A stretch of 64,000 nucleotides of DNA from Streptomyces sp. LBL (GTDB taxonomy: Bacteria > Actinomycetota > Actinomycetes > Streptomycetales > Streptomycetaceae), in assembly GCF_029893585.1 (NCBI RefSeq), contig NZ_JARXYX010000007.1, positions 124,001 to 188,000 of the forward strand. Direction: 5' to 3'. The position numbers and the translations under genes were made by a program. The notes under the pieces were generated by a model that was not told the origin of the DNA, did no database searches, and saw only the letters and a program-made list of their open reading frames with translations. This document shows positions 39,787 through 63,539 of this stretch, piece by piece. The first letter of the stretch is position 1. Each line of letters opens with the position of its first letter.

Positions 39787-39788
39787 CC

Positions 39789-40691: not shown

Positions 40692-40717
40692 GAAGGCCGT
40701 CGGCCAGGAGGTGAGCG

Positions 40718-42741: not shown

Positions 42742-42779
42742 GGAGCGTGGTGGTGCACGGCAGACGGTACACCGATCAG

Positions 42780-43790: not shown

Positions 43791-43844
43791 TGACACTCCC
43801 TGCTGCGGAGGCCTGTGAGGTACTCGCAATGACCACCGGAGTCC

Positions 43845-45653: not shown

Positions 45654-45747
45654 CCTGGATGGTGGGGTCGGTCGGCCGTTTCCTGCTTGTGTCCGGGCGG
45701 GTGGCTACACTGATCGGCAGCGCGGGGGCGCGCTCTGGAGGAGATGT

Positions 45748-46455: not shown

Positions 46456-46557
46456 TCCGGGCCCAGATATTGGGGACCACGCCCCTTCAACTTCGTGGAC
46501 GGCATCGCCTCTTTGGGCGGTGTGCGGATTCTGACCGCAGCGTCCATGGAGACACAC

Positions 46558-46974: not shown

Positions 46975-46989
46975 GCGGCGGTCTGAGCT

Positions 46990-48039
46990 GTGACGATTCA
47001 GGACTTGCTCAAGGACCTCTCGGTGATGGACCTGACGACGTTCGCCAGGGCCATCCCGTCCCCGAAGGACTTCCTTCTCACCCAGTCGATCTTCCCGAAC
47101 GTGGAGATGCGGGAGGTGAAGTGGCGTACGAAGGACTCCGGCCGGTACGTGAACGTCGCAAAGTACCGCGCGTTCAACGCGAGCGTGCCGTTTGCGACGC
47201 GTGAGGCGTGGCAGACCTCCCGCGAGGGTGCGCTGCCCGCGCTGGGTCAGAAGCTCGTCGTCTCCGAGCAGGAGCAGATCCTGCTGGAGGCGTCGCACGG
47301 CTCGGATCAGGACCGACTGATCGAGCTGCTGTACGACGATGTGGAACGCCACGTCGAGGCGATCCGGTCCCGGCTGGAGCTGGCGGCCGGCGATGTCCTC
47401 CTAGACGGCCGGTTCACGCTGGAGCAGGAGAACGGCCTGACGCTGGAGGTGGACTGGAACGTTCCCGCCGAGAACATGCCGGTCGCCTCGCGGCCGTGGT
47501 CGGACCCGGCCTCCGACCCGATCGCGGACGAGCTGCGGTGGATCCAGCACCTGGACGACATCGGCGCCCCGGAACCCGAGCTGGTGCTCACCAGCCGCAA
47601 GGCGTTCTCGTACCTTGCGGCGAACAATGCCTACCGGGCGGCGTACTACGGCAGCGTGAACCCGTCGACCACGCCGACAGCGACGCTCACCCCGCAGCAG
47701 ATCAACGTGGTGCGTGGAAACTACTCGCTGCCGCCGATCCAGTTCTACAAGGCCCAGGTGAGGGTCGACGGTAAGCCCCGCAAGGTGCTGCCGGAGGACC
47801 GGTGGATTCTGGTGCCGCCGGAGCGGGAGAAGTGGGCGCAGACCATGTACGGGGTGACGGCAGAGGGCCTGGTGCTGTCGCGCGGCTCGAACCCGGAGAT
47901 CATCCGCGAGGACGCTCCCGGCCTGATCATCACCCGAGGTGTGCAGGATGATCCGGTGCAGATCTGGACCAAGGGCGCCGGGGTCGCGATGCCGGTCATG
48001 CACACCCCCGACGCGCACATCGTGGCGAAGGTCCTGTGA
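46990..48039 (+). CDS. phage major capsid protein E family
   Basis: A 349-aa shell protein from GTG 46990. The N-terminal FLLTQSIFPN, the mid-region RDRLEL-like VERHVEAIRSRLELAAGDVLLDG, RAAYYGSVNPS and the late EKWAQTMYGVTAEGL region fit the lambda gpE-type capsid family. The length is typical and the frame intact. Its stop overlaps the start of the next small gene (TGATG). Confidence 0.82.
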   Translation: MTIQDLLKDLSVMDLTTFARAIPSPKDFLLTQSIFPNVEMREVKWRTKDSGRYVNVAKYRAFNASVPFATREAWQTSREGALPALGQKLVVSEQEQILLEASHGSDQDRLIELLYDDVERHVEAIRSRLELAAGDVLLDGRFTLEQENGLTLEVDWNVPAENMPVASRPWSDPASDPIADELRWIQHLDDIGAPEPELVLTSRKAFSYLAANNAYRAAYYGSVNPSTTPTATLTPQQINVVRGNYSLPPIQFYKAQVRVDGKPRKVLPEDRWILVPPEREKWAQTMYGVTAEGLVLSRGSNPEIIREDAPGLIITRGVQDDPVQIWTKGAGVAMPVMHTPDAHIVAKVL

Positions 48040-48323
48040 TGGCGGGCCGCGGGCGGCTAAAGGCCGCGGTGTACGTACAGGACCCGGCTACCCGGGAGGA
48101 GCTGATCCTGCTGCCGGGTGAGTCCCCGGATCCGGAGGTGGCCGTACTGATCACCAACCCGGACGCGTGGGCTGAGGTACTCGAGGAGAGCGACTCGGAG
48201 CTGATTGCGGTCGGTGAGCCGGAGCCGACCGAGAGGGACAGTGCCGTGGAGGCTGCAGGAGCGGAGGCCGGCGGCGGGGCGAAGAAGCCGCAAGCGCGGC
48301 GTTCCCGCTCGTCCGGATCGTAG
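48039..48323 (+). CDS. small phage-module protein, probable head accessory
   Basis: A 94-aa acidic protein with a basic Ser/Arg tail. It begins with RLKAAVYVQDPATREELILLPG, as in short phage proteins encoded next to the capsid gene. ATG 48039 overlaps the capsid stop. The exact role (connector or stabiliser) is unknown. Confidence 0.6.
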   Translation: MAGRGRLKAAVYVQDPATREELILLPGESPDPEVAVLITNPDAWAEVLEESDSELIAVGEPEPTERDSAVEAAGAEAGGGAKKPQARRSRSSGS

Positions 48324-48337
48324 ATATGTTGTCCGTA

Positions 48338-48373
48338 GGCCCGTCACCAGCATCCCCCGTCTGGTGACGGGCC
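48338..48373 (+). terminator. strong hairpin after the capsid operon
   Basis: GGCCCGTCACCAG pairs perfectly with CTGGTGACGGGCC around a ten-base loop, 15 bases after the stop at 48323. It is a likely terminator or attenuator between capsid and the last head-module gene. Confidence 0.7.
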
Positions 48374-48400
48374 CTACTTCGTTCGACGAAGGAGTCCCTC

Positions 48401-48733
48401 GTGGACGAGTTCCAGAGGTCGTGGCTGCTGGCGCAGCTCGGCCCCGATACGGACCCCGCCGACCTGGAGCGTCGGTTCTTCCGGCTGCGGTCGGTGCGCG
48501 CGGTCGCCCTCGAGGTGTTGGGCGAGCGGCGGGCCAAGTTCCTCGCGGACCCGTTGAAGGTCACCGTCGACGGCGTGGTGACGATGGACCTCCAGGAGAA
48601 CTTGCGGGGTATCGAGCGACAGATCGAGCAGGTGCGCCAAGCCCCCGCCCCGGGCGACCCAGGCGACGAGGACGATGCAGCGGAGACGGTGATGGCGGTG
48701 ACGTGGCTGACGCCGACGCGCCAGTACCGGTAA
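48401..48733 (+). CDS. last head-module protein, unnamed
   Basis: A 110-aa product; GTG 48401 follows GGAG. It starts with DEFQRSWLLAQLGPDTDPADLERRF and ends in a flexible acidic tail. The position after the capsid gene suggests a head-tail connector or similar, but no motif proves this. It is the last phage-like gene; no tail genes follow. Confidence 0.55.
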   Translation: MDEFQRSWLLAQLGPDTDPADLERRFFRLRSVRAVALEVLGERRAKFLADPLKVTVDGVVTMDLQENLRGIERQIEQVRQAPAPGDPGDEDDAAETVMAVTWLTPTRQYR

Positions 48734-48843
48734 TGGCCCTTGAAGCAGGAGTCGCATATCCGGGCTCGCCGAGCACGATTCTCCGCATGACGATTGCGGA
48801 TTGTGTGAAAGTGAAACTCGGAGTCGTATTAACGGCGGGCTGG

Positions 48844-48886
48844 TGAGATGTGGATCATTAAATCTCACGCATTGAGCAAACCTCAA
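48844..48886. promoter_or_regulatory. paired inverted repeats upstream of the methyltransferase gene
   Basis: TGAGAT...ATCTCA (48844-48867) and TTGAG-CAAAC-CTCAA (48872-48886) lie in an AT-richer 290-base region before the methyltransferase start. Restriction-modification operons often have control sites here; these repeats are candidates, with no matching controller gene visible. Confidence 0.35.
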
Positions 48887-49027
48887 AATGATGTTGAGGA
48901 ATACAGGTGACGATCGGGCGGAAAGAAAAGCGCGTTGCCATGGAATTGTAATTTCGTGGCGCATTAGTATATACTCTGGACTGATTCACTCCCATGTAAA
49001 ACGCGTCCACGGTGCCCGAGGTTGAAA

Positions 49028-50029
49028 ATGACAGATTCCCGCACAATCACGCCTCCTCTTCAGGGGAAGACGGCCGAGGTCTATGAGGGTGACGCCTATG
49101 ACCTCATGGAGAAAATCCCAGCGGAATCTGTCGACCTGATCATTACTTCACCCCCTTACTGGGGACTCCGCACCTATGGCCTCGACCACAACGAGGAAAT
49201 CCTGCGTGAATGGGAAGCCGAGGGTGGGAGCAAGGAGGAACCCCCGCCGTACGACTGGTACCGGCTGCATGGCGGTTGCCTGGGATTGGAACCACTTCCG
49301 GAGTGGTACGTGAGCCACCTGGTTGAGATCTTCCAGCGCAGTGCTCCGGCGTTGAAGCCGGGTGGTAGCTTGTGGATCAATATTGGGGACACGTACTTTG
49401 CCCGCTGGTCAAGCATTCGGATGGACGGCCGGCAGGGGCTTGGCGATAACCCGCGGATGCGCCGGAAGACTCCCATGGGAGGCTTCCGGCAGGAGAAGCA
49501 GATGCTGCTGATTCCGGCGCGGTTCGCTATCGCCATGCAGGACAAGCGGTGGATTCTCCGCAACGACCTGATCTGGGAGAAACGGAACGTGCCGCCGCGT
49601 CCGGAGAAGGACCGGCTTCGACTGGCACATGAGCACTTCTTCCACTTCGTGAAGCGACCGAAGGAAGGGCGAGCGAAGTACTACTACGACATGTCTGCGG
49701 TGGAGGACGGGGCTCGGGACGTCGTTAGGGTGAATGCCGCGCCGGGTTCGGACGGTCATTCGGCGACTTTCCCTGTGAAGCTGATCGAGCCCCGTATCTT
49801 GAGCTCGTGCCCTCCTGATGGTCTTGTGTTGGACCCGTTCTGTGGTACAGGCAGGTCGCTTGCAGTGGCTGTCAAGAATGGCCGCCGCGGGATGGGCTTT
49901 GAGATCACGTCGAATTTCTCGGCATCCGCGCGAGCGAACGCAATGAACCTGAACTTCGCCACCGAACCTGATGACGAGGTAGATCTTCCATCGCAAAGGG
50001 ATACCGACCCGCAGTCTCAGCTGTTCTAG
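49028..50029 (+). CDS. site-specific DNA methyltransferase (beta-type, N4-cytosine or N6-adenine)
   Basis: A 333-aa amino-methyltransferase. The catalytic motif IV TSPPYWG is at residues 40-46 and the SAM motif LDPFCGTGRS lies late, at about 268-277, which is the beta order. TSPPY favours N4-cytosine, but N6-adenine is possible. ATG 49028 follows GAGG. It converges with a NotI-like endonuclease gene 105 bases away, so the pair is probably a type II restriction-modification system protecting and cutting the same site. Confidence 0.88.
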   Translation: MTDSRTITPPLQGKTAEVYEGDAYDLMEKIPAESVDLIITSPPYWGLRTYGLDHNEEILREWEAEGGSKEEPPPYDWYRLHGGCLGLEPLPEWYVSHLVEIFQRSAPALKPGGSLWINIGDTYFARWSSIRMDGRQGLGDNPRMRRKTPMGGFRQEKQMLLIPARFAIAMQDKRWILRNDLIWEKRNVPPRPEKDRLRLAHEHFFHFVKRPKEGRAKYYYDMSAVEDGARDVVRVNAAPGSDGHSATFPVKLIEPRILSSCPPDGLVLDPFCGTGRSLAVAVKNGRRGMGFEITSNFSASARANAMNLNFATEPDDEVDLPSQRDTDPQSQLF

Positions 50030-51671: not shown

Positions 51672-52913
51672 TCAGGATGCGAACTGCCGCAAGTGATGGG
51701 CGAGTTCCCGCTCGCTGTTGGGGAGCCACGTGGCGATTTTCGCGGCACGTTCCTTGCTCATCGTGTTGGGCTTGGCCTGTGATGCGGCCGTGAACTGGCG
51801 TGATACGTAGACGCCTTGTTCGACGTCGCCTCCGCGTAGCAGGGCCGAGGCGAGGTCACCGAGCACGACGACGCCGCCATCCGGTAGTTCGTCCCCGAGG
51901 CGGTCGACCGCGGTGTCGGCTGTGGCGGTGAGTTCGGATCGCCCCAACTGCCCGTACACGGATAGGGCCAACGAATCCATCCGGTACGGCGTCACGAAGC
52001 GGACCCACGCCTGCTCGTTGGTGTGATCCGCGAAGTCGTAGGCGAAGCGTGCTCGATCAAGCGCACGCAGAGCCCCTGTCTCGTCGCCTACCGCGGCGGC
52101 TTCCTCCGCGTGCCTTCCGAGGACCCAGGCTGCGGCCGTGGCGTTGCCGTGGCCGCGCACGTCCTGGGAGGCTTGGATCAGGAGTTCCAGCTTCCTCTTC
52201 GGCGTCGGAGCCCCGTAGCTGGCGTAGGTGAGGGCCAAGGCTCTGAGGGGAGGATGCCCGGCTTTCGCCGCGCACTCAGTCGTGACGTCGTAGTAGGCGC
52301 CAGCCTTGTCGTTCTCGCCCAGGTCCCAGGCCACCCATCCGGCAAGGGCGGCGGTCTCCCCGGCGGCGATCGTGAGAGCCCGTTCGTGCTCGCCGGCATG
52401 AGGCAGGGCTGCGGTGATCGCGTCAAGGTGCGACTCAACGGTGCTTTGCAGGCGGAGGGCACTGAGATTGAGTTCCTGGACGTGCAGGTCAGCAGCTCGG
52501 GTGATGAGCGCGACCGCAGCGGGCTTGTCGATGCGGGAGCCCTTGCTGAGCGCGAAGGCGAGCCGCCCCCAGGGCTCGGCAGCCGCGCTTACGCCAATGG
52601 CGGCGCTGCCCAGCAGCTTGCGGCGCTTCACGTCGTCCTGGTCCTCCTCTTCACGGACGTTCCCCCTCCTCCGTCGGGCGCGGGCGGCCTTGGCCTCCCG
52701 CAGTAGTTCTTCGAAGGGGACGCCGCAGGCCACCGCGATGTGGGCGAGTGTGTGGTTCGTAGGGACGTTCTCGAACTTCTCGTAGCGGCTGATTTCCCGG
52801 CGGGTCATGGTGTCCCGACCGGAGACAGCGTTGATCGCGTCTGCCTGCTGCTCTTGCGTCCGGCCTGCGTCCTTCCGGAGCTGGAGGAGCAGCTCGGCGA
52901 ACGGATCTGTCAT
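51672..52913 (-). CDS. XRE-family transcriptional regulator with TPR-like domain
   Basis: A 413-aa protein. The N-terminal helix-turn-helix (about residues 8-70, with TMTRREISRYEKFENVP) is followed by a basic linker, VKRRKLLGSAAIGVSAAA and about 280 helical residues with TPR-like pairs. This architecture is common in Streptomyces regulators of development or secondary metabolism. It is divergent from the ATP-binding protein gene at 53169, so both may respond to it. Confidence 0.8.
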   Translation of the reverse strand: MTDPFAELLLQLRKDAGRTQEQQADAINAVSGRDTMTRREISRYEKFENVPTNHTLAHIAVACGVPFEELLREAKAARARRRRGNVREEEDQDDVKRRKLLGSAAIGVSAAAEPWGRLAFALSKGSRIDKPAAVALITRAADLHVQELNLSALRLQSTVESHLDAITAALPHAGEHERALTIAAGETAALAGWVAWDLGENDKAGAYYDVTTECAAKAGHPPLRALALTYASYGAPTPKRKLELLIQASQDVRGHGNATAAAWVLGRHAEEAAAVGDETGALRALDRARFAYDFADHTNEQAWVRFVTPYRMDSLALSVYGQLGRSELTATADTAVDRLGDELPDGGVVVLGDLASALLRGGDVEQGVYVSRQFTAASQAKPNTMSKERAAKIATWLPNSERELAHHLRQFAS

Positions 52914-53168
52914 GAGTGTGACCTTTGTCGTGGACGGAATCCAATCATGGCCTCAATTCCCCCCGGGGTTTCCCCCCTTGACAGATTTTTCCCCCTCTGG
53001 ATTCCCCTGGTGGACGGCTTCGTAGCGCGGTGTGATGGGTGCATGACCAGGCTCCAAGAGGCGACCCCGCCGGGCGGGGGCACGGACAGAACTGCGGCGG
53101 TAGCACGCCGAGGGACGCCGCCCATATCCGGCGTGGACCCGAGATCGAGACGGGATTGGAGAACGCCG

Positions 53169-53615
53169 ATGACCCCCACCACGGCCCTCGCCCCGGTCGC
53201 CTCCGCCCCAGATCACACCGCCGCGACTGGCTTCGAAGTTGACTTCCTTCCGGCCGAGTTGCGCGTCGGGCAGATGAGACGGATCACAGCAGCCCACCTG
53301 CGTCGCTGGCACCTGACCGCGCTAACCCACGACGCCGCGCTCGTCGTCTCCGAGCTGGTCACCAACGCCGTCCGACACGCCGAGGGAACTCCGGTTGGAC
53401 TGAGGATGTGGCGCGCCGCGCACGAACTTCGCATCGAAGTCACCGACGGATCGCCGACACCGGCGCGTCTGCGTTGCGCGGGCGAGGCAGACGAGAGTGG
53501 CCGTGGGCTGTTACTCGTCGCTGCCATCGCGAAGGAGTGGGGCACGAGTCCCGACGGGACGATGACGTGGTGCTCCCTCGCGATCCCCGAAGGGGGATCG
53601 CGATGGTTGCAGTGA
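53169..53615 (+). CDS. RsbW-like ATP-binding protein
   Basis: A 148-aa GHKL ATPase domain with ELVTNAVRHAEGTP (N box, about residues 61-74) and ADESGRGLLLVAAI (G1 box), as in anti-sigma-factor kinases. The start is MTPTTALAPVAS at 53169. It overlaps the next gene by 13 bases, so they form an operon with the two unnamed genes that follow. Confidence 0.82.
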   Translation: MTPTTALAPVASAPDHTAATGFEVDFLPAELRVGQMRRITAAHLRRWHLTALTHDAALVVSELVTNAVRHAEGTPVGLRMWRAAHELRIEVTDGSPTPARLRCAGEADESGRGLLLVAAIAKEWGTSPDGTMTWCSLAIPEGGSRWLQ

Positions 53616-54026: not shown

Positions 54027-54833
54027 ATGACCACGAACCCGCAGCGGCCTGACATCGCCCGCGACCTGATCGACCGTGCTAAGAGATCACGGCAGTACCA
54101 CTCCAGGCTCGCCCGCGGCCTCTTGAGCCGGACTGAGATCGACATGGGACGCCACAACGAACACGTCAACGCCCAGGTGCTCCGGCGGATCGTCAGCGAA
54201 CACGGATGGCCGGGCAGGAGCCTGGTCGGAGAGGAGGGGGCAAAGTCGGCGTGGCAGATCGCTCTCCACGCTGACCACCTCGCCGACTTCCAGCGTCTGG
54301 CCTTGCGTCTCATGGCCACCACCGTGGAACGGGGCGAGGCGACCATCCAGCAGTGGGCACATCTGCACGACCGGTGCAGCATCAACGCCGGCGCGGCGCA
54401 AACCTACGGCACCCAGTACCGCAGCGGACCCGATGGTGTGGAACCCTTGCCAGTCCGAGAGCCCAAGCACCTTAACGCCCGCCGCGCGAGCGTCGGCCTG
54501 CAGTCATTCGCCACCGCTCACGAAGCCTTACGACGACGCCACACCCGCGAACCGGAATCCGGGCCGCCCGACGACACCGAGCACCGCGCCGCGGCACTTC
54601 CCGTGAAGACGGCGGCAAGAGGACCGCCGCCAGGAGCTCTTCAGCGCAAGCCTCTGCCGCGAAGCGAATCACCGCCGGTTGGGTGTTGGTCGAGAGCCGG
54701 GCCGACGCTTGAGGCTTCCCTCAGCGACAAGGTCGAAAACAGGCCAAGAGATCGCTGCAGGTCAAAGCAATCTTGTGGAGTCAACCCAGATCGAAATAGC
54801 CTTCGTTGCCCCCAAGGGGGGCTTCGATGCTGA
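54027..54833 (+). CDS. DUF6624-family protein with an odd C-terminal tail
   Basis: Residues 1-165 match DUF6624: IVSEHGWPGRSLVGEEGAKS, then WQIALHADHLADFQRLAL, AHLHDRCSINAG, QTYGTQYRSGPDGV and LNARRASVGLQ. Function unknown. After about residue 185 the sequence becomes Arg/Pro/Ser-rich and non-coding in feel, so the true end may lie near 54590 if a base has been lost; I could not fix the position. It precedes the biosynthetic operon by 36 bases, but the shared strand alone does not tie it to that pathway. Confidence 0.65.
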   Translation: MTTNPQRPDIARDLIDRAKRSRQYHSRLARGLLSRTEIDMGRHNEHVNAQVLRRIVSEHGWPGRSLVGEEGAKSAWQIALHADHLADFQRLALRLMATTVERGEATIQQWAHLHDRCSINAGAAQTYGTQYRSGPDGVEPLPVREPKHLNARRASVGLQSFATAHEALRRRHTREPESGPPDDTEHRAAALPVKTAARGPPPGALQRKPLPRSESPPVGCWSRAGPTLEASLSDKVENRPRDRCRSKQSCGVNPDRNSLRCPQGGLRC

Positions 54834-54869
54834 CGAGTTCCCCTGCAGCGACCCGAGGAGGAAAGATCC

Positions 54870-55022
54870 GTGACTGTTCTCACGCGAGACCTTCAGGAGA
54901 CACGCAGCACCACCGTCCGCCCTACAGCCCTGGCCGCTGCGCTGAGGGAAGTCGCGGCGAAGCGAGAGGGTGACCTGATCCGCTTCCGTACGTGCTGCGC
55001 GGACCCACGCGCCAGCAAGTAG
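54870..55022 (+). CDS. candidate precursor peptide (50 residues, Cys-Cys core)
   Basis: GTG 54870 follows GAGGAGGA by seven bases, one of the strongest ribosome sites in the window. The product has a charged helical leader-like part (residues 1-36, with ALAAALREVAAKREGD) and a C-terminal part RFRTCCADPRASK. The adjacent Cys residues at 42-43 would be the natural target for sulfur or radical SAM chemistry. A perfect hairpin follows the stop and six enzyme genes follow that, the classic layout of a modified-peptide operon. No homologous precursor family is known to me. Confidence 0.65.
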   Translation: MTVLTRDLQETRSTTVRPTALAAALREVAAKREGDLIRFRTCCADPRASK

Positions 55023-55026
55023 CGAC

Positions 55027-55063
55027 GTGAGGTCAGGCCCCGCTGTGCGGGGCCTGACCTCAC
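55027..55063 (+). terminator. perfect 17-bp attenuator hairpin between precursor and enzymes
   Basis: GTGAGGTCAGGCCCCGC and its exact complement surround a TGT loop, beginning four bases after the precursor stop. Partial termination here would give more precursor than enzyme transcript, as in many ribosomal-peptide operons. The next gene starts 40 bases downstream. Confidence 0.8.
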
Positions 55064-55102
55064 CTGCGCCCATGCTGCGCTGCCCTTGCTGGAGGAGAAA
55101 CC

Positions 55103-56314
55103 TTGACGACCTTTTCACTACTCGACCGGCGAGGGGGAAAGCACTCCCTTATCGCCCAGCCTGGCGACACCGTCGCGTCCGTGCTGCTGCGCAACCACAT
55201 ACCCCCGACATCGGTCCTCACCTACAGCGGCCAGGAACGCATCGTCGTCGACGACCACGTCATAGACCCTGAGCAGACGTACGAGGCCCGGCTGATCGAG
55301 GGCTACGACTTGGCCGGAATCCGTAGGCTCTTCGAGAGCCGGGACAGCAGCGCCGCATACATCCGGAGGCGTCTTTCGGTCGCTTCCGATGGAGCACTGG
55401 CGATGGAGCGAGCGCCGCTAGATCTTCCGTCCGCCGCCGCGCATGTCGACACGATGGTGCGGGAGACCATCAACGAGTTCAAGCTGATGAGCGACGGCGA
55501 CCGGGTAGTTCTCGGCCTGTCCGGCGGGGTCGACAGCGGGTCCCTCCTGATGTTGCTCGCTGCTCACCGGGAGGCAGAAGAACTAGCAGACGTCCAGATC
55601 GAAGCGGCGACCTTCCAGGACTTCGACAGTAAATGGTCGGAGACCTTCGACTTCGCCGCGGCTCTGGCTGCCAAGCACGGGGTGCGGCATCACGTGCTCG
55701 AAGCGGGCCTGGCTGAGGAGGTCTTTCACCTCAACCGGCCCATTGCGCAGATCCTCATGCTCTTGATGGAGACCGAGGACGCCCACTTCGCCATGTATGC
55801 CGACCACCACTCCACCCGCCGCGTCCTGGAGGTCTTCGCTGATCGTGTCGGGGCCCGGAAGATCGCGCTCGGGCTGCACACCACCGACTTGCTCGCCGGG
55901 ATGATGAACGCCCACACCACCGGCTTCACCATGGGGCAAGTCCCTTCCCGCACAGTCGGTCCGTACGAGTACATCCTCCCTCTGGCGTTCACCCCGAAGC
56001 GGGAGTTGCACCTGTACTACACGCACCACACCGGCCACGCCCCGAAGCAGACCACGCCCAATCAGTGGGAATTCAACCCTACTGACCGGAACTTCTACTA
56101 CTACCTCGCCGACCAGCTCCAATGGTCCTGGCCGGGTATCGAGACGTGGATGTTCACCGCCCACGCCCAGCATGCCGCTGCCCATCCCGCGGTCTTCAAG
56201 GAGTGCGAGAACTGCGGGGCCTCCGTGAGCCTGCAGACCATGGCCGATGCGCCGTGGGCGGGCGTGTGCGACGTGTGCGCGCTGCTCGACAAGCACGGCT
56301 GGATCCGCCACTAA
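55103..56314 (+). CDS. PP-loop ATP-pyrophosphatase with N-terminal beta-grasp-like segment (TtcA/TtuA type)
   Basis: A 403-aa product; TTG 55103 follows GGAGGAG. Residues 1-70 have the strand pattern of a ThiS/ubiquitin-like beta-grasp domain (SLIAQPGDTVASVLLRN, then VVDDHVIDPEQTYEARL) but no Gly-Gly end. The ATP-binding PP-loop SGGVDSGS is at 140-147. A Cys4 zinc ribbon (CENC 368-371, CDVC 389-392) closes the protein. TtcA/TtuA enzymes adenylate a carbon-oxygen group and replace oxygen with sulfur, usually on tRNA. In this setting the peptide or a small molecule is a likelier target. The fused carrier-like domain is unusual. Confidence 0.78.
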   Translation: MTTFSLLDRRGGKHSLIAQPGDTVASVLLRNHIPPTSVLTYSGQERIVVDDHVIDPEQTYEARLIEGYDLAGIRRLFESRDSSAAYIRRRLSVASDGALAMERAPLDLPSAAAHVDTMVRETINEFKLMSDGDRVVLGLSGGVDSGSLLMLLAAHREAEELADVQIEAATFQDFDSKWSETFDFAAALAAKHGVRHHVLEAGLAEEVFHLNRPIAQILMLLMETEDAHFAMYADHHSTRRVLEVFADRVGARKIALGLHTTDLLAGMMNAHTTGFTMGQVPSRTVGPYEYILPLAFTPKRELHLYYTHHTGHAPKQTTPNQWEFNPTDRNFYYYLADQLQWSWPGIETWMFTAHAQHAAAHPAVFKECENCGASVSLQTMADAPWAGVCDVCALLDKHGWIRH

Positions 56315-56329
56315 ATCTGGAGGGTGACC

Positions 56330-57817
56330 TTGAGCAGCAACCAGGAAAAGACAGCCAGGCGCAGGCTTCCGCTGATCACCGACCACGACTTGGCCCCCCT
56401 GAAGGCCGCCGGCGTCGTAGACGGCCACCAAGCGTTCCCCGTCGGCGACCACGAGACACTGTTCTCCAACGAGGAGCTGATCACCCCGCTCCAGCCCTAC
56501 CCCGGGGCTGTACTGCCGCGCATAGCAGGCCGCACCGCGTACCCGATTCCAGACCGGCCCGGCGACTATGGAACCTACACAGACTTCCGCAAAGCACCCA
56601 AATACATGGCGCAGTGGGTTCACTGGAAGAACCGCGCGAACATGGTTCTCGAAGGCCGCTACCACGAGCTTCCCCCCGCGCACTTCGAGGGCATCTTCAC
56701 CCTGGTCTGCAACTTCATGTGCCCGCACTGCACCCGCCGCGTCACCCGCACCAAATGGGTCGAAGACGGCACCTGGGAGCACAACACTGAAGTCGAGAAG
56801 AAGAACACGATGCACCCCGCCGGCCTCAGGCGGGTCATCGACCAGCTCGCGCTGCACCGCACCGACGACCAGATGGGCATCGTGTGGGGAGGCGGAGACC
56901 CGACCGCCAATCCCTACACCTACGACGGGATGATGTACGCCCGGAACCTGGGCATTACCTCCAGCTTCCTCACTAATGGCACCTTCCTCGAAGTAGACCG
57001 CTGCCTAGACGCCGACCCGACGCTGATCAGGATCAGCCTCAACTGCGGAACCGAAGAAACGTATCGCAAGTTCCACGGCTATCCGCGCGGATGGGACTAC
57101 TTCGACCGGGTCAAAGCCAACATGCGCGATCTAGCTCGCCGCAAGCTCGAACGCGGCGCCCGGACTCTGGTCGGCATCTCTCTGATCACTGACGAGCGCA
57201 ACATGGACGACACAGTCGCCGCCGCGAAGGAGATCCGCGCCGTCGTCGAGGAAGCCGGCCCCGGCATCGACTACGTCATCGCCCGCCCCGTCATGAACTA
57301 CGAGCACTTCGACGACGATTGGGCTCGCGTCAAGGACGGCACCAAGCAGCGCGCCCTCGACTTGGTCAGCGATGGCGGCGAGGCGTGGAGCATCATCAAC
57401 GACCTCGGCATTCCCCTCGTCCTCATCAAGGACTCTTACGAAACTCCACCGGCCCCCGAAACGTACGAGGGTACGGACTGTCTGGCCTACGGGATGTACG
57501 GCGAACTGCGCCACAACGGCGATGTCCAACTGTGCTCCGACTCCTACGGCAACCCCGAGTACACCGTCGGGAACCTCTTCGAGAACACACTCGAAGAAAT
57601 CTGGAGATCCGACCGGCGTCGCGAGGTCCTGGACAAGGTCAACGCCAAGAAGTGCTTCCAGACGGCGTGCCCGCACAACTCTCGAGGCCACCACCACAAC
57701 CGGGTCTTCCATCAGATCGAAAAACTCCGGCAGGCAGGGGAGATCGAGCGGGTCCGCCGCTGGATGGACGACCTCAGGGAAGTCACCTACCCCCTCGGAC
57801 ACTCCTTCTTCGTCTGA
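56330..57817 (+). CDS. radical SAM enzyme, SPASM-like, first of two
   Basis: TTG 56330 is chosen because GGAGG lies six bases upstream; GTG 56324 would be too close to it. A 495-aa protein. The SAM cluster motif CNFMCPHC places Cys at about 127, 131 and 134, followed by GIVWGGGDPT. Late Cys (DCLAYG, QLCSDSYGN, KCFQTACP) suggest extra iron-sulfur clusters of the SPASM/twitch type, typical of peptide-modifying enzymes. It shares the C-terminal region and the ending HSFF with the next enzyme, so they are paralogues. Confidence 0.87.
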   Translation: MSSNQEKTARRRLPLITDHDLAPLKAAGVVDGHQAFPVGDHETLFSNEELITPLQPYPGAVLPRIAGRTAYPIPDRPGDYGTYTDFRKAPKYMAQWVHWKNRANMVLEGRYHELPPAHFEGIFTLVCNFMCPHCTRRVTRTKWVEDGTWEHNTEVEKKNTMHPAGLRRVIDQLALHRTDDQMGIVWGGGDPTANPYTYDGMMYARNLGITSSFLTNGTFLEVDRCLDADPTLIRISLNCGTEETYRKFHGYPRGWDYFDRVKANMRDLARRKLERGARTLVGISLITDERNMDDTVAAAKEIRAVVEEAGPGIDYVIARPVMNYEHFDDDWARVKDGTKQRALDLVSDGGEAWSIINDLGIPLVLIKDSYETPPAPETYEGTDCLAYGMYGELRHNGDVQLCSDSYGNPEYTVGNLFENTLEEIWRSDRRREVLDKVNAKKCFQTACPHNSRGHHHNRVFHQIEKLRQAGEIERVRRWMDDLREVTYPLGHSFFV

Positions 57818-57858
57818 CCGCCGGGCCTGCCTAGCTGCCCACCGGAGGCCCAACCATC

Positions 57859-59172
57859 ATGAACACCACTGGAAGCACGCGCACGCGCACGCGCTGGCCA
57901 CTGCCCGACCAGGTCGCCACATGGGGCGACCTGGAAGCATTCCGTGCCTCCCGCGTGGAAAGCGGGCAGTGGGTCTTCTGGGAGGACCGAGCCGACCTGG
58001 TCCTCCAAGCCCGCTACGACGACGTCAAACCCCTCCACATCGAACTGTCTCCCACCTACCTGTGCAACTTCGCCTGTCCTTGGTGCAGTTGCCGCAGCGC
58101 ACGGGAGGACTGGTCAGACGACGATGTCTTCAACCACCCCCGCGCTACCCCCATGACCGTCATGCGGAAGGACAAACTCGACCACGTTCTCACCCACCTC
58201 GCCGAAGACCAGGTGGGCATCATGTGGGTCGGCGGTGAACCGACCATGAATCCGCTGATGTACCCCGCCGCTCTCCGCGGCACCGAACTCGGCCTCCAGC
58301 AATGCCTGTTCACCAACGGCAGCCTCCTCCAGCCCAAGCGCATTGCGACCTTGTTCGACGCCCGCTTGGCATTCATCAGGGTCAGCCTCAACGCCGTAAC
58401 CCCTGACGTCCACCAGGCCCACCACGACTACGACCCCCGCCGCGGATATGCCAAGCGGGTCATGGACAACCTGCGCGCTCTGGCTGAGACAGGCGCACGC
58501 CGACAGGGATCAACCAAGGTCGGGGTGTCGGTGGTCGTCGATGAACGTAACCTCGACGACCTTGAAGCCACAGCCGAGCACCTATGCCGCCTCGCCGAGA
58601 AATACGGGCACGGCGCCGTCTCCTATGCGATCTTCCGCCCCGCATTCCCTTTGAACACGGCGCAGATCGACATGCGCCCGGACACCGTCGACCGCTTCCT
58701 CAACGCAGTCGGTCCGGACTCTCCGTGGAACCGGCGGATGCGCGAGGCGGGCATTGACGTAGTAGTGCCCGAACAGTCGCTCTCAACCCAGAACGAGACG
58801 CCAGCGGACCTTCCCGTCCGCGACGACATGGGATGCCTCTCCGCTGGCTGGTTCGGAGAGATCACCCCGAACGCCGACATGGTTCTGTGCTCAGACCAGT
58901 ACGGCAACCCCGACTACTTCATCGGGAACGTCGCCACCACCCCTCTCACGGCACTGTGGGCAGGCGAGGGGCGCCGCACGGCCCTCGAACACGCCCGACA
59001 GACCTCCTGCTACACCACCTCCTGCCCTCGCAACGGCCGCGGCTACTTCTTCAACCGCATATTCCGGCAGGTCGAGAACCTGCGCAGGCAGGGACGCATC
59101 CACGAGGTGGCCGCATGGATGGAAGACCTCCGCGCCGTGCTGCCCCGCCCGACCCACAGCTTCTTCCTATGA
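57859..59172 (+). CDS. radical SAM enzyme, SPASM-like, second of two
   Basis: A 437-aa paralogue of the previous enzyme; ATG 57859 follows GGAGG. The cluster motif CNFACPWC has Cys at about 69, 73 and 76, then GIMWVGGEPT. C-terminal Cys (GCLSAGW, VLCSDQYGN, SCYTTSCP) mirror the first copy. It probably performs a related step on the same substrate, such as a carbon-carbon or carbon-sulfur bond. It lacks about 50 N-terminal residues of the first copy. Its stop overlaps the reductase ATG. Confidence 0.87.
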   Translation: MNTTGSTRTRTRWPLPDQVATWGDLEAFRASRVESGQWVFWEDRADLVLQARYDDVKPLHIELSPTYLCNFACPWCSCRSAREDWSDDDVFNHPRATPMTVMRKDKLDHVLTHLAEDQVGIMWVGGEPTMNPLMYPAALRGTELGLQQCLFTNGSLLQPKRIATLFDARLAFIRVSLNAVTPDVHQAHHDYDPRRGYAKRVMDNLRALAETGARRQGSTKVGVSVVVDERNLDDLEATAEHLCRLAEKYGHGAVSYAIFRPAFPLNTAQIDMRPDTVDRFLNAVGPDSPWNRRMREAGIDVVVPEQSLSTQNETPADLPVRDDMGCLSAGWFGEITPNADMVLCSDQYGNPDYFIGNVATTPLTALWAGEGRRTALEHARQTSCYTTSCPRNGRGYFFNRIFRQVENLRRQGRIHEVAAWMEDLRAVLPRPTHSFFL

Positions 59173-60149
59173 CCCCTGCCCACCCCCCTCTGCGGCGCCT
59201 GGGAGTGGGCGGCCCGGCGATACACCCCCTGGTGCTCGGGACTATGAACTTCGGTCCCCACACCCCCGAGCCTGCGGCGCACCGCATCCTCTGCGCGGCC
59301 GTCGACCTCGGCATCACCCTCATCGACACGGCCAACGTCTACGGATGGCGGCCCGGTGGAGGATGGACCGAGCAGATCATCGGCCGCTGGCTGAAGCGCA
59401 GCCCGCACGCCCGCGATCGAGTCTTGATCGCCACCAAGGCGTACCGGCCCGTGGACGACTGGCCAAACTCCGGCGGCCTGTCGGCCCTGAGCGTCCGCCG
59501 CGCCTGCGAACGCTCCCTGCGCAACCTCGGCGTCGACACGATCGACCTGTTCTTTCTCCACCATGTCGACCGGACCACACCTATCCACGAAACTCTCTGC
59601 GCCTTGGAAAGCCTCCGGACTCGCGGCCTCATCCGCTCCTTCGGCTACTCCAACTTCGCCGGCTGGCACCTTGCTCAAGCCCAAGAGACCGCGCGAACCG
59701 CTGGCTTTCCCGGCGGCGTGGCCGAACAGTGCCTCTACAACCCCATGGTCCGCGCCGCCGAACTCGACGTGATCCCCGCCTGCACCGAGTACGGCATGGG
59801 AACGCTGGCGTGGAGCCCCCTCAACCGCGGTCTCCTCGCCGGCCTCACAGGGGCAGGACCCCGCAGAAACGACCCGCGCACCACCGCAACCCACAGGCGC
59901 CACACAAGGGCCCTGGAAGGCTTCTGGGACGCCTGCGCGCATCTCGGCATCCGACCCGCCCAGGCGGCCCTAGCGTGGGTGCTCAGACGTGTCACCGCGG
60001 CCGTGATCGGTCCGCGCACCGAAGCTCACCTGCGAGACGCTGCTGCCGCCCTCGACCTCATCACCAGCGAAGAACTCTTCAAGACCCTGGACACTGAGAT
60101 CGACGGCGCATTCCCGCCGCCGCGTCCCCTCGAGGGAGCCGACCCGTGA
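59169..60149 (+). CDS. aldo/keto reductase
   Basis: A 326-aa NADPH-dependent carbonyl reductase-fold protein. It shows LVLGTMNFG, then GITLIDTANVYG with the catalytic Asp (about 53) and Tyr (about 58), DLFFLHHVD, a cofactor-site GYSNFAGWHL and a terminal AVIGPRT. The start ATG overlaps the radical SAM stop and its end overlaps the amidohydrolase GTG. It probably reduces an aldehyde, ketone or imine made by the upstream enzymes. Confidence 0.87.
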   Translation: MTPAHPPLRRLGVGGPAIHPLVLGTMNFGPHTPEPAAHRILCAAVDLGITLIDTANVYGWRPGGGWTEQIIGRWLKRSPHARDRVLIATKAYRPVDDWPNSGGLSALSVRRACERSLRNLGVDTIDLFFLHHVDRTTPIHETLCALESLRTRGLIRSFGYSNFAGWHLAQAQETARTAGFPGGVAEQCLYNPMVRAAELDVIPACTEYGMGTLAWSPLNRGLLAGLTGAGPRRNDPRTTATHRRHTRALEGFWDACAHLGIRPAQAALAWVLRRVTAAVIGPRTEAHLRDAAAALDLITSEELFKTLDTEIDGAFPPPRPLEGADP

Positions 60150-61321
60150 ACGAACCAACCGTTGACGATCTTGTGCTCCTGCGCAGGATCCGGCGGGTGA
60201 TCCATCGCCACCCTGAGACAGCGCACCGAGAGCATCGCACCGCCGCCTACGTCGAACGTCTCCTCACACGGTTCGGGCTTGCGCCCTTCCGCCCGGCCCC
60301 CACCAGCGTCGCCGTCCGCATCGGACCATCCACAGCCGACCTCGTGATCGGCTTCCGCGCGGACCTCGACGCCCTCCCCATCCCAGAAGAAACCGAGGCC
60401 CCGTACCGCTCAGGCATCCCTGGCGTCATGCACGCCTGCGGTCACGACGGGCACGCCGCAGCCGTCCTGACACTTGGCCGCCGACTTGCCGCCGATCCAC
60501 CCCGCTCCCACGCCGTACTCCTCGTCTTCCAGCAAGCCGAGGAATCCCACCCCTCGGGCGCACCCCTCGCACTGCAAGGGCTCCCGGCCGACATGCGTCC
60601 CCCCTTGTTCTTCGGGCTCCACCTGTGGCCCGAACTGCCGACCGGCGTGATCGGCCTGCGCTCCGGCCCGCTCCTGGCCTCGGTGGCAGGCATCACGATC
60701 CGGATCACCGGTAGCCAGGGCCGCTCCCATGGAACACAGGCCGAGGCCGGGGGCGTGGACGCTCTGAACGCCGGGGTACTCCTGTACGGCATGCTGCCTA
60801 CCACGCCTGCGGGCCGGACACTGGACGAAGACCATCCGCATGCCCTCCACATCGGGAGGCTTGCCGGTGGCGTTCTCCCGCACCGCGTGCCAGTCGAGTG
60901 TGAGATCCGCGGCACGCTGCGAGCCCTCTCAGAGAGCGCCGAATCGGAAGCCCTCAGCCAGATACAAGCACTGGCAGCGATGGCTGCGGCCCGGACGGGC
61001 GCCGCCATCGACGTGAAAGTGGAGCAGGACATCCGGCCACCGCTGTGCAACACGGAGTCGGCCGTAGATCTGGCTGCCGAAGCCTGCCGGGCGACAGGAG
61101 CCACGTGGCGCCCCTACCCGCCCCGGCCGATCGGGGTCAGTGACGACTTCGGCTGGTATCTGAAAGGCGCCGACGGTGCCATGCTCCTCGCCGGATGCGG
61201 CACCGGCCCGTCGCCCGCCGATCTGCACACCTCGCGCTTCGACTTCGACGAACAGGCCCTCCTGCCCATCGTCGACGTCTTCACATGGCTAGCGCACAAC
61301 CCGCGGAGGAGTACGCGGTGA
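60146..61321 (+). CDS. M20-family amidohydrolase/peptidase
   Basis: A 391-aa zinc enzyme of the M20 group (N-acyl amino-acid amidohydrolase-like). It shows GFRADLDALP at about 69-78, HACGHDGH at about 96-103, QQAEE near 130 and a late SDDFGWYL. GTG 60146 overlaps the reductase stop. In a peptide pathway it could remove the leader remnant or an acyl group and release the final product. That role is inferred; the family also includes carbamoylases and indole-acetyl-amino-acid hydrolases. Confidence 0.87.
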   Translation: MNEPTVDDLVLLRRIRRVIHRHPETAHREHRTAAYVERLLTRFGLAPFRPAPTSVAVRIGPSTADLVIGFRADLDALPIPEETEAPYRSGIPGVMHACGHDGHAAAVLTLGRRLAADPPRSHAVLLVFQQAEESHPSGAPLALQGLPADMRPPLFFGLHLWPELPTGVIGLRSGPLLASVAGITIRITGSQGRSHGTQAEAGGVDALNAGVLLYGMLPTTPAGRTLDEDHPHALHIGRLAGGVLPHRVPVECEIRGTLRALSESAESEALSQIQALAAMAAARTGAAIDVKVEQDIRPPLCNTESAVDLAAEACRATGATWRPYPPRPIGVSDDFGWYLKGADGAMLLAGCGTGPSPADLHTSRFDFDEQALLPIVDVFTWLAHNPRRSTR

Positions 61322-62205
61322 CACCCCAGGCAAGCCATCTGAGCCCCGCCCTGGTCGCGGTGGACGCGGAGACGGTCGGTGGCATCGAGCGCCTGTGGAG
61401 CACCCTTGGACTCTCCGACACTGCCCTCAAAGACCCGCAGCGACAAAAAGCATGGCGGCACCGGCTCTACGACACGGTCGGCGAGCCGTGGGAACAGGTT
61501 GTGCGGCAAGTGCGTGAGGGCCTGGACACCGAGCCGCATGCGGCAGTCATCACCTCGCACCCGCCACGGCAGGCGTCAGTACCGCTGCTCGCCGCCCTGT
61601 CAGCCGCCCTGGGCGCCCTCGTCGTCCCCCAGACGATGGGGCAGACGCTGCATGTCCTACGCCTACACGCCCCGGACGGCGCCGATACCCGCTGGCACAC
61701 CGACGGGGCAGGCTGGGCCCGGCAGAACGACTTCACATGCCTGCTCTGCATCAAGCCCGCACAGGAAGGAGGCGCCACCGAGCTCCTCCCCTGGGCGGTA
61801 CTGCGGTCCGCCCTCGCACGAGATCCAGACCTCTGGCGCAGGCTATGGGGGACGGATGTTCCGTGGATCCTGGACGACGAAAGCGGCGCTGGTACGGCCT
61901 TCACGCCAATCGTCACTTCGGAAGGCTTGCGCTACCTGCGCGAGCAGATCGAATCTGCCGCCGCAGCATTCCCGCACCTCGCCCACGACCTCCACGACCT
62001 GGACGACAGCTTGCACCAAGCACTACTGTCCACCACCGGCCATCTCGCGCTACGCCTCACCGAGGGCAAGGTCCTGGTGTTCGACAACCGGCGCTCTCTG
62101 CATCGCCGCGGCCCGCTGCCCGAGGGGAATGCCGGAGAACGGACGCTGGTACGAACGCGCCTCACCAACCCCACCTGGAGCAGGAACCTAAACGACCTCG
62201 ATTGA
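61318..62205 (+). CDS. Fe(II)/2-oxoglutarate-dependent oxygenase, TauD/TfdA-like
   Basis: A 295-aa product; GTG 61318 overlaps the amidohydrolase stop (GTGA). The iron-binding motif RWHTDGAGW gives His (about 127) and Asp (about 129). The distal His and the 2-oxoglutarate-binding Arg fall in SLHRRGPL and the RTLVRTRL region near the C-terminus. Such enzymes hydroxylate, desaturate or ring-close unactivated carbons. It is the last enzyme of the operon and probably tailors the product. Confidence 0.82.
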   Translation: MTPQASHLSPALVAVDAETVGGIERLWSTLGLSDTALKDPQRQKAWRHRLYDTVGEPWEQVVRQVREGLDTEPHAAVITSHPPRQASVPLLAALSAALGALVVPQTMGQTLHVLRLHAPDGADTRWHTDGAGWARQNDFTCLLCIKPAQEGGATELLPWAVLRSALARDPDLWRRLWGTDVPWILDDESGAGTAFTPIVTSEGLRYLREQIESAAAAFPHLAHDLHDLDDSLHQALLSTTGHLALRLTEGKVLVFDNRRSLHRRGPLPEGNAGERTLVRTRLTNPTWSRNLNDLD

Positions 62206-62211
62206 CGCGGA

Positions 62212-62241
62212 AGGGCCCCGCCGGCGACGCCCAGGGGCCCT
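62212..62241. terminator. bidirectional terminator between the operon and serS2
   Basis: AGGGCCCC and GGGGCCCT form an 8-bp stem in the 53-base gap between convergent genes, suitable for ending both transcripts. Confidence 0.6.
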
Positions 62242-62258
62242 CCTCACATCTCCTGGCA

Positions 62259-63539
62259 TCATCCCAGGGGCTCGAGGATCTTCTTCCCCATGTAGGGAAC
62301 CAGCACCTCAGGAAGCTCCACCGTGCCATCGGGCCTTTGCCCATGCTCCAGCAGCGCCGCCCACACGCGGGGCGTGACAATCCCGGTTCCGTTCAGCGTG
62401 TGCACGGGCGCCGTCTTCCCCTCCGCCGTGCGGTAACGGATGTTCCCCCGCCGGGCCTGGAAATCACTGAAGTGACCGACCGACGCGCACTCCAGCCACT
62501 TGCCGACACCAGGCGCGTAGACCTCAAGATCAAAGATCCGCGTCGAGGAGAACGTCAGGTCACCCGTGCACAGGTCCACGACCCGGTAGGGAAGCCCCAG
62601 CATGCGTAGCGGCTTCTCAGCATCAGCCAACAGCGCATCGAACTCCTCCTGAAACGTCTCGGGAGTACAGATGCGCACCAGCTCCACCTTGTGGAACTCA
62701 TGCACCCGCTGAAAGCCCCGCGTGTCCTTCCCAGCCGAACCAGCCTCGCGCCGGAAGCTCGCCGTGTGCGTCATGTAACGCTTCGGAAGATCCCCGGGCT
62801 CCAGGATCTCGTTCTGGTGCAGACCTGTGAGCGGAACCTCACCGGTGGGCACCAACCACAGATCGTCCAGCGTGGTGTTGTACGCATCATCGGCGAACTT
62901 TGGCAGGTGGCCGGTTCCCTCCATGATCGGACCGCGCACTAGGTGAGGCACGACCGTCTCAAGATAGGTGTCCCGATGGATGTCCAACCCGAACTGCACC
63001 AGAGCCCGCAACAGCCTCGCCCCGTCACCGTACAGGAGCGCAAACCCTGATCCGCTGAGCTTCGCCGCCCGCTCGGGGTCGAATACCTTCAGGTCAGCGG
63101 CGATATCCCAGTGCGGCCGGTACTCCTTCCCCTGGAACATCTCCACGGAAGGCCCTTCACGCCGCAGAACGACATTGCTGTCCTCCGTGCTCCCGACCGG
63201 AGCATCCGGAGAGGGCAGGTTCGGCAGGCGCAGCATATGGTGGCGGAACTGCTCCTCCGCCTCCCGGTACTCGGCCTCCTGCTTGCTGATCTGCGCCTTC
63301 AGCTCCCCCAGGCGCTTCCGTTCCTCCATTGCTGCGGGATCGCGCTGGGCGAGGAGCTTCCCGACCTCCTTGGAGCGCCGGTTCATCTCGGCCCGAAGGG
63401 TCTCCAGCTCAGAGAGTGCCGACCTGCGGTCCAGGAGGGCAGCGTGAGCCTGGTGCACAGCCTCGGGGGACGTTCCCTTCTTCTCCAGAGCCGCTGCGAC
63501 AGCTTCCACATCGTGGAGCAACAGATTCGGGTCGATCAT
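62259..63539 (-). CDS. serS2: divergent second seryl-tRNA synthetase
   Basis: A 426-aa class II synthetase that charges tRNA-Ser. The N-terminal arm is a long coiled coil (about residues 25-100). Motif 2 is FRREAGSAGKDTRGFQRVHEF and motif 3 region contains ASVGHFSDFQARRGNIRYR. ATG 63539 follows GAGAGGTG. The N-terminus (MIDPNLLLHDVEAV) differs clearly from the Streptomyces housekeeping enzyme as I remember it, so it is probably an extra copy. In other clusters such copies give resistance to synthetase inhibitors (albomycin) or supply seryl-tRNA (valanimycin). It is convergent with the peptide operon. Confidence 0.85.
   Translation of the reverse strand: MIDPNLLLHDVEAVAAALEKKGTSPEAVHQAHAALLDRRSALSELETLRAEMNRRSKEVGKLLAQRDPAAMEERKRLGELKAQISKQEAEYREAEEQFRHHMLRLPNLPSPDAPVGSTEDSNVVLRREGPSVEMFQGKEYRPHWDIAADLKVFDPERAAKLSGSGFALLYGDGARLLRALVQFGLDIHRDTYLETVVPHLVRGPIMEGTGHLPKFADDAYNTTLDDLWLVPTGEVPLTGLHQNEILEPGDLPKRYMTHTASFRREAGSAGKDTRGFQRVHEFHKVELVRICTPETFQEEFDALLADAEKPLRMLGLPYRVVDLCTGDLTFSSTRIFDLEVYAPGVGKWLECASVGHFSDFQARRGNIRYRTAEGKTAPVHTLNGTGIVTPRVWAALLEHGQRPDGTVELPEVLVPYMGKKILEPLG

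Follow-up and report, generated by a model that had tools for sequence, protein, structure and literature searches.

A candidate operon for a ribosomal-peptide-derived antibiotic, built on a TtuA/NcsA-type PP-loop enzyme, in Streptomyces sp. LBL

Introduction

PP-loop-type adenylating enzymes act on tRNA, cofactors and, as lasso cyclases, ribosomal peptides. The lasso cyclases are Asn-synthetase-like enzymes of this type that adenylate a side-chain carboxylate of their ribosomal peptide. In this study we analyzed a 64,000-nucleotide stretch of DNA from Streptomyces sp. LBL (contig NZ_JARXYX010000007.1, positions 124,001 to 188,000; the whole stretch is referred to as the window), which contains an operon of a 50-codon gene and six enzyme genes. 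The latter are designated as PPL (a PP-loop ATP pyrophosphatase of the TtuA/NcsA type), RS1 and RS2 (paralogous radical S-adenosylmethionine (rSAM) enzymes), AKR (aldo/keto reductase), M20 (amidohydrolase) and 2OG (2-oxoglutarate oxygenase), and a second seryl-tRNA synthetase (SerRS) gene converges on them. We found that PPL is paired with a peptide gene over two phyla, that it lacks the iron–sulfur (Fe-S) cysteines of TtuA and NcsA, and that a divergent SerRS co-occurs with the rSAM-containing type of cluster. We propose, with a probability of about 0.55, that this operon directs the biosynthesis of a small antibiotic derived from a ribosomal peptide and represents an undescribed class of ribosomally synthesized and post-translationally modified peptide (RiPP) type, which is founded on a PP-loop adenylating enzyme and whose product inhibits SerRS.

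The tRNA thiolases TtuA and NcsA (Ncs6) (Protein Data Bank (PDB) entries 5ztb, 5mkq and 6scy) are similar to PPL in the SGGxDS motif, the fold (Z ~24) and the C-terminal zinc ribbon, whereas PPL lacks their Fe-S cysteines, has a beta-grasp N-terminal part, is paired with a peptide gene and resides in natural-product-like clusters. Enzymes of the TtuA/NcsA-type family have three Fe-S cysteines, and the chemistry of the superfamily consists of substrate adenylation followed by nucleophilic attack (PMC6772006). PP-loop-type adenylation is known on a carrier-bound non-ribosomal peptide: CtaC, the closthioamide thioamide synthetase, belongs to the same adenine-nucleotide alpha-hydrolase superfamily as PPL and handles a peptidic, carrier-held substrate in an antibiotic pathway (PMC6772006). 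However, CtaC requires an Fe-S cluster and non-ribosomal substrates bound to a peptidyl carrier protein (PMC6772006), whereas PPL lacks those cysteines and is accompanied by a ribosomal peptide. Compared with the substrates of lasso cyclases, the peptide tails paired with PPL also offer an invariant Asp, and PPL weakly matches the Asn synthase model and NF033561; it is nevertheless closest to TtuA/NcsA and has the beta-grasp part and the zinc ribbon. A transglutaminase-like leader protease, as used in lasso systems, was not found among the operon proteins, and PPL scored far below the Asn-synthetase equivalog cut-off.

Microcin C is made by the ThiF-type enzyme MccB from a peptide shorter than that of the window. 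Amino-group carrier proteins are, like the product of the 50-codon gene, ribosomal peptides of ~50 residues with a conserved C-terminus, and the attachment enzymes of known carrier systems are PEARLs and ATP-grasp ligases. TglA, the scaffold of a PEARL system, is alike in the same respects and has 50 residues (PMC9016710). The microcin C type also combines a short ribosomal peptide with an enzyme that uses ATP, and its likely target is an aminoacyl-tRNA synthetase (for the target, PMC9032320); the albomycin cluster, like the locus studied here, is a Streptomyces cluster in which a divergent second SerRS occurs together with rSAM enzymes (PMC9032320). Assignments to four of the described types were rejected by inspection of the operon proteins: ThiF (microcin C family) was not found, and a PP-loop enzyme is present instead; Lant_dehydr (PEARL scaffold system) was not found, and the tail differs; YcaO (thioamitide and azoline RiPPs) was not found with Pfam and NCBIfam; and the transaldolase, epimerase, siderophore nonribosomal peptide synthetase and nucleoside genes of an albomycin-like cluster were not recognized, a peptide and PPL standing in their place. 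A PqqD-type match was absent from the operon proteins at E 0.01; many RiPP classes, as we understand them, have none or a hidden one. A literature search, mostly at title and abstract level and with subscription journals largely outside its range, found neither the peptide nor this enzyme set described, nor any TtuA/NcsA-type enzyme dedicated to a ribosomal peptide, and the available part of a report on 4'-thiothymidine (PMC12691670) mentions neither such a peptide nor "pp-loop". Together with the precursor-family searches below, this agrees with an earlier note on this DNA, made from the letters alone, whose author knew no described family with this enzyme set.

Conservation of the peptide gene and its pairing with PPL

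A scan of genome contigs with a profile of the PPL alignment yielded 16 loci. Duplicate records of one genome were counted once (L015/L026, L016/L029, L025/L041 and L034–L038), and nine weaker or partial matches in the genus (L005–L013), a partial match in genome G1043 (E 1e-9) and a phage match were left out and taken as other PP-loop proteins. A gene for a peptide with a [KR]FRT tail is present in 18 of the 21 distinct PPL loci (18 of the 19 intact ones); as in RiPP systems, an encoded precursor is conserved with candidate modifying enzymes. The pairing spans two phyla and PPL identities down to 26%. In L031 (Bacillus) and L033 (Photorhabdus), the PPL genes are broken and an FRT-type peptide is absent.

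The tail RFRTCCADPRASK is identical in four rSAM-type clusters, namely those of the window, Streptomyces sp. MNU76 (L020), Kutzneria (L018) and a metagenome-assembled genome of Pseudonocardiaceae (L019), and in the last three the small open reading frame (ORF) bearing it sits 5' of PPL and RS1. Kutzneria holds two copies of the peptide gene, the second on the opposite strand. Within the 13 tail codons, the five RFRTCCADPRASK genes differ only synonymously. When the last 17 codons of six genes, L040 among them, were compared, synonymous differences exceeded non-synonymous ones in 15/15 pairs (window and L020: 10 same, 6 synonymous, 1 non-synonymous; window and L040, among the closest cases: 12 same, 3 synonymous, 2 non-synonymous). 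F39, R40, T41 and D45 are invariant and C43 nearly so in the 17 aligned peptides, and in every one of them the fifth or sixth tail residue is Cys. The tail always comprises 13 residues counted from [KR] through the last residue ([KR]FRT plus exactly nine) and is fixed, whereas the N-terminal part of the peptide is variable. The commonest tail in distant PPL loci (~30% identity) is KFRT[TN]C[TS]DC[VL]PN[FYL], the peptides of G943 and G1005 end in RFRTCCADPRASR, and the tail encoded on the Geobacillus plasmid pGS18 (L017) is RFRTCATDPITSW. A pattern scan for [KR]FRT, nine residues and a stop (68 sequences, 691,584 bases, duplicates included) returned nothing beyond these peptides except a false match spanning a stop. 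None of the 17 peptides matched a known precursor family of NCBIfam at E 0.1, and the single Pfam match (E 0.068) was a chance one. Purine-rich ribosome sites comparable to GAGGAGGA of the window precede most of the related peptide genes. These comparisons indicate that the 50-codon gene is real and conserved.

The earlier note had asked whether the small gene always lies 5' of homologs of the PP-loop and rSAM genes. The genes are kept together in rSAM-type clusters, whereas rSAM genes are absent from most other PPL clusters; the position of the peptide gene also varies, being 5–6 kb 3' of PPL in L025 and L032 and ~4 kb 5' of it in L021. Neither of the outcomes which that note had named as contradicting it was seen: the small gene is conserved with the same enzymes, and no unrelated substrate gene was found beside them. 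The hairpin that follows the peptide gene in the window has z -6.0, and 0/200 shuffles were as good. It is strong in 4/6 loci (window, L018, L020 and L017; z -4.2 to -6.0), weak in L040 (z -1.6) and absent in L019 (z +0.2), and the hairpins of different loci occupy the same place with unrelated sequences. It perhaps holds peptide expression above enzyme expression.

PPL is rare: it had matches in 13/295 genomes of the genus at E 1e-3, but over the full length in no more than four, in 2/396 genomes of a phylum sample at 1e-10 and in 5/394 of a class sample at 1e-15. At E 1e-15 it was found neither in a further 248 genomes from the phylum of G1042 nor in 118 from the family of G1043. The PPL alignment had no relatives among viral contigs (74 stretches), and a tblastn search of phages gave one weak match only (MT835478). 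In plasmids, tblastn with PPL returned only pGS18, and RS1 matched one rSAM record at 24.5% (Solidesulfovibrio). The peptide profile had five matches in the 295 same-genus genomes, four of them with a full-length PPL and one, G024, without PPL.

G024 (L074, ~8022–10045, minus strand) holds the remnant of an M28-type cluster, in which the peptide and a phosphodiesterase-like gene are kept beside a FemAB-like fragment, while PPL and the other genes that would lie between the latter two are missing. A small ORF 5' of PPL in L030 (Parcubacteria; 9611–9877) ends in SITCDLMSHI without FRT, with an EamA transporter gene 3', and is possibly another tail type. In Photorhabdus bodei (L033, 9755–12756), a Cys-free 60-residue ORF, the broken PPL and a major facilitator superfamily (MFS) transporter gene lie in a row, perhaps as a decayed minimal system.

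Properties of PPL

The AlphaFold model of PPL (predicted local distance difference test (pLDDT) score 79, predicted template modeling (pTM) score 0.73) gave TtuA and NcsA as the best fold matches (Z ~24; Foldseek E 1e-14), with TilS next (19.6). A PPL profile searched against PDB sequences found the same proteins (6scy, E 4e-16) and a weak beta-grasp match (1ryj, E 0.004), which is the source of the beta-grasp label, the fold-search matches not spanning that part. The enzyme carries the PP-loop SGGxDS motif. The CxxC of NcsA, which we take to be its cluster-binding site, aligns to M231 and D234 of the window PPL, beside the invariant H235, and the remaining NcsA cysteines 5' of the zinc ribbon are likewise unmatched in the PPL alignment. 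Only the four zinc-ribbon cysteines are common to 18/18 PPL proteins examined; these are the only cysteines of the window PPL, and some relatives have one or two scattered extra ones. Because the Fe-S cysteines of TtuA/NcsA are missing and only those of the zinc ribbon are conserved, PPL is, judged by its sequence, no ordinary sulfur transferase, and its assignment as a normal Fe-S thiolase was rejected. Thus, where the earlier note had read a beta-grasp/PP-loop enzyme of the sulfur type, the TtuA/NcsA-type fold was found and the sulfur type was not sustained.

Tailoring genes and the PPL tree

Tailoring genes were tabulated by tblastn over the 21 loci and one extension (L066, Kutzneria). There are two sets, which are never mixed. 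The rSAM set occurs in 4/21 loci, exactly those with the CCADPRASK tail, where RS1 was found in four, RS2, M20 and 2OG in three each, AKR in two and SerRS in four (that of Kutzneria in L066). The whole cluster is present in L020 and parts of it in L018 and L019, the latter being ended by the contig end. The second set, which is actinobacterial, comprises genes for an aminotransferase/methyltransferase (12/17), a phosphodiesterase-like protein (11/17), a GNAT/FemAB-like protein (Pfam Acetyltransf_6; 11/17) and an M28 hydrolase (10/17), with NDK-like and nucleotidyltransferase-like genes in some loci; several second-set loci end early at contig ends. L017, L030, L031 and L033 have neither set.

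In the PPL tree, loci with CCADPRASK and CCADPRASR tails form one clade (support 1.000), although the CCADPRASR loci carry the second set; their PPL is 51% identical to that of the window. Because PPL follows the tail while the tailoring set can change, the peptide and PPL are best read as the module and the tailoring genes as exchangeable; this is the strongest argument for such a module. Transporter genes lie near some PPL genes (MFS in L017, L025, L033 and L040; EamA in L030).

The Kutzneria region (L018/L066) has two more rSAM genes, which we take to be RlmN-like (Pfam: Radical_SAM); one of them adjoins the second copy of the peptide gene, and the other follows RS2. The region also encodes a C39-peptidase ATP-binding cassette transporter, a small carrier-protein-like protein and free-standing condensation and adenylation proteins. 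On pGS18, a gene for a 424-residue "Clp N-terminal domain protein" (L017, 12237–13511) closes the cluster; that it is an immunity copy, if the product targets ClpC, is speculation.

Second SerRS

In 16 genomes, a SerRS at least 61% (61–100%) identical to that of the window was found in 4/4 with rSAM-type clusters and in 0/12 others, in which the best identity was 44%. Each rSAM-type genome has a further SerRS at ~40% identity, and in Kutzneria the cluster-type gene lies ~23 kb from PPL. Among 199 genomes of the genus, the cluster type was found at E 1e-95 in one, the window's own. The earlier note had recorded a second SerRS gene converging on the operon; the gene is there, and that description was incomplete in that it tracks the rSAM-type cluster and is not a mere neighbor. 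By its distribution, the second SerRS belongs to the rSAM-type system. Residues were compared in 23 of 24 SerRS proteins, three of them cluster-type (L044, with no complete ORF in the locus, was left out). Fifteen residues are common to the three complete cluster SerRS proteins and found in 0/20 others, of which at least 80% share one residue at each of these positions; the fifteen include S234G in the TxE motif and Q282E. Several of these positions are presumably near the active site of SerRS structures, and the cluster SerRS keeps what we take to be the catalytic motifs. Co-occurrence of a divergent SerRS with rSAM-type clusters would be expected if the enzyme conferred immunity to a SerRS inhibitor. 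The albomycin cluster provides a precedent, in which the second SerRS, AbmK, has this immunity role (PMC9032320), and by analogy the divergent SerRS of the window probably gives immunity to the product.

Organization of the operon and its surroundings

The features of the operon are listed in Table 1. The layout described in the earlier note, a 50-codon gene with a strong ribosome site, a perfect hairpin, six plus-strand enzyme genes and a convergent SerRS gene, was recovered in full from the sequence. Gene labels come from Pfam and NCBIfam searches of the operon proteins, which also back that note's naming of two rSAM/SPASM enzymes, an aldo/keto reductase, an M20 protein and a 2-oxoglutarate oxygenase. 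Both RS1 and RS2 have the CxxxCxxC motif and a SPASM domain at or above the Pfam cut-off (RS2, 21.6 bits against a cut-off of 21.5). AKR matched Aldo_ket_red (3e-60), M20 matched Peptidase_M20 (1e-30) and an amidohydrolase model (2e-60), 2OG matched TauD (2e-15) and SerRS its model (6e-122), and domain support for PPL was weak (Asn_synthase 1e-5, TtcA 3e-11). The 2OG ORF has alternative upstream starts at 61195 or 61285.

Table 1. Positions of the operon features in the window
Feature	Position	Strand	Support and remarks
Ribosome-binding site GAGGAGGA of peptide gene	54855..54862	+	read in sequence
Precursor or carrier peptide gene, 50 aa, GTG start, TAG stop	54870..55022	+	sequence; related peptides in 17 further PPL loci
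C-terminal 13-residue fixed tail RFRTCCADPRASK of peptide	54981..55019	+	alignment and codon comparison
Perfect 17-bp hairpin between peptide gene and PPL	55027..55063	+	fold z -6.0
PPL, beta-grasp and TtuA/NcsA-type PP-loop ATP pyrophosphatase with zinc ribbon, 403 aa, TTG start	55103..56314	+	
RS1, radical SAM and SPASM, 497 aa	56324..57817	+	79/74/86% identity in L018/L019/L020
RS2, paralogous radical SAM and SPASM, 437 aa, 35% identity to RS1	57859..59172	+	
AKR, aldo/keto reductase, 326 aa, ATGA overlap with RS2 stop	59169..60149	+	74% in L020
M20-family amidohydrolase, 391 aa, GTGA overlap with AKR stop	60146..61321	+	74% in L020, 56% in L018
2OG, TauD-type 2-oxoglutarate oxygenase, 295 aa from GTG 61318, GTGA overlap	61318..62205	+	62% in L020, 36% in L018
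Second SerRS, 426 aa, convergent; probably immunity to product	62259..63539	-	ORF extendable to 63608

A DUF6624 gene (54027–54833) was rejected as an operon member, as it had no tblastn match in L018–L020. Residues 201–280 of an upstream ORF (52740–53615) match (45%) L020 9075–9317, just 5' of the L020 peptide gene, and the ORF may encode a common regulator. Positions 38452–50026 of the window hold a partial prophage or phage-derived element with genes for a DAM-like phage methylase with a GNAT-like domain, a terminase, a major capsid protein E and a second DNA methylase.

Discussion

The reactions, their order, the product and its target are what we infer from these genes. PPL would take the peptide and spend ATP to adenylate a carbonyl of the tail, which would belong either to the invariant Asp or to an amide of the backbone. 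The likely nucleophile would be the Cys of the tail itself, leading to a thiazoline, a thioester or intrapeptide sulfur transfer, and the invariant Asp would be an alternative site of PPL action, as in lasso cyclases. RS1, RS2, the 2-oxoglutarate oxygenase and the aldo/keto reductase would then rebuild the Cys-containing tail into the product, which the M20 hydrolase would release; the product would inhibit SerRS, and the divergent SerRS would shield the producer. As a kind, peptide-derived natural product pathways are known; the founding enzyme is of a type that our literature search did not find in them, and the system may be a class of its own. A more far-reaching version would see it as the founding member of a class in which an Fe-S-free TtuA/NcsA-type PP-loop enzyme uses the Cys of its own peptide substrate and the rSAM branch leads to the first ribosomal-peptide-derived SerRS inhibitor. 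We hold this only tentatively, because PP-loop enzymes already act on ribosomal peptides in the form of lasso cyclases and because the invariant Asp competes as the site.

Several observations weigh against our proposal. The intact PPL of L030 (Parcubacteria) is without an FRT peptide, and the small ORF upstream of the broken Photorhabdus PPL has no Cys. When the peptide was modeled in one chain with PPL, by reading natural L018 DNA through two stops, it did not dock confidently and had a pLDDT of 31–48 by blocks of ten; the model shows a helix at peptide residues 21–44 at low confidence. The window operon itself has no transporter gene. The CCADPRASR tail of G943 and G1005 goes with a different tailoring set and a single ordinary SerRS, a combination that suits a carrier no less than a core. 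Two SerRS genes are also present in G284, G1034 and G1035, which have no rSAM-type cluster, and none of these is of the cluster type (44% identity at most). Furthermore, AbmK and VlmL are examples of cluster SerRS proteins with a part in biosynthesis as well (PMC9032320), and constancy of PPL and tail under a swapped tailoring set is also expected of a carrier peptide.

The last point leads to the main rival, in which the peptide is a reusable carrier like TglA or the amino-group carrier proteins: PPL and ATP load a small molecule on Asp or Cys, the enzymes tailor the tethered group, an M20 or M28 hydrolase releases it and the peptide is regenerated. Two tailoring sets that are unrelated to each other share one tail type, two tails share one tailoring set, and both cluster types have a metallo-hydrolase (M20 in 3/4 rSAM-type loci, M28 in 10/17 others, some of which are incomplete). 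TglA is a precedent, being a 50-residue scaffold that is regenerated after proteolysis (PMC9016710). However, tails differ among PPL clades yet are nearly fixed inside each, up to the last residues, which exceeds the need of a tether site, and neither PEARLs nor ATP-grasp ligases were found among the window operon proteins with Pfam and NCBIfam. We therefore regard a carrier as possible but doubtful.

A biosynthetic SerRS, which would give seryl-tRNA or seryl-adenylate and not (only) immunity, would fit the retention of the presumed catalytic motifs and the example of AbmK and VlmL (PMC9032320), and SerRS need not then be the target. A tRNA-using transferase was not recognized in the operon by Pfam or NCBIfam. 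The changes specific to the cluster type affect positions that are conserved elsewhere, some of them presumably near the active site, and fit insensitivity to an inhibitor. Since the albomycin protein also gives immunity, the two roles are compatible, and we consider a biosynthetic function of the window SerRS unlikely.

Still less probable is a single-use sulfur donor, in which PPL adenylates a small molecule and the sulfur comes from the peptide Cys, which becomes dehydroalanine; this would be LarE-like, with the Cys on a separate peptide. It would account for a sulfur-transferase fold without conserved Cys outside the zinc ribbon and for a tail Cys in 17/17 peptides, but explains neither the invariance of F, R, T and D nor the exact length of the tail, and the Photorhabdus upstream ORF is Cys-free, although its link to the broken PPL is uncertain. 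The strong hairpin directly 3' in 4/6 loci would suit a regulatory leader that works through an attenuator, but this reading was set aside as scarcely credible, for the hairpins are unrelated in sequence and the peptide gene varies in position and strand (L025, L032, L021 and the second copy in L018).

The exchangeable tailoring sets make the product and carrier roles of the tail testable against each other. The linked divergent SerRS offers a target assay before the structure of the product is known. Finally, the 13-residue tail together with PPL provides a genome-mining handle for this family, whose scattered members belong to Actinomycetota, Bacillota and perhaps further groups.

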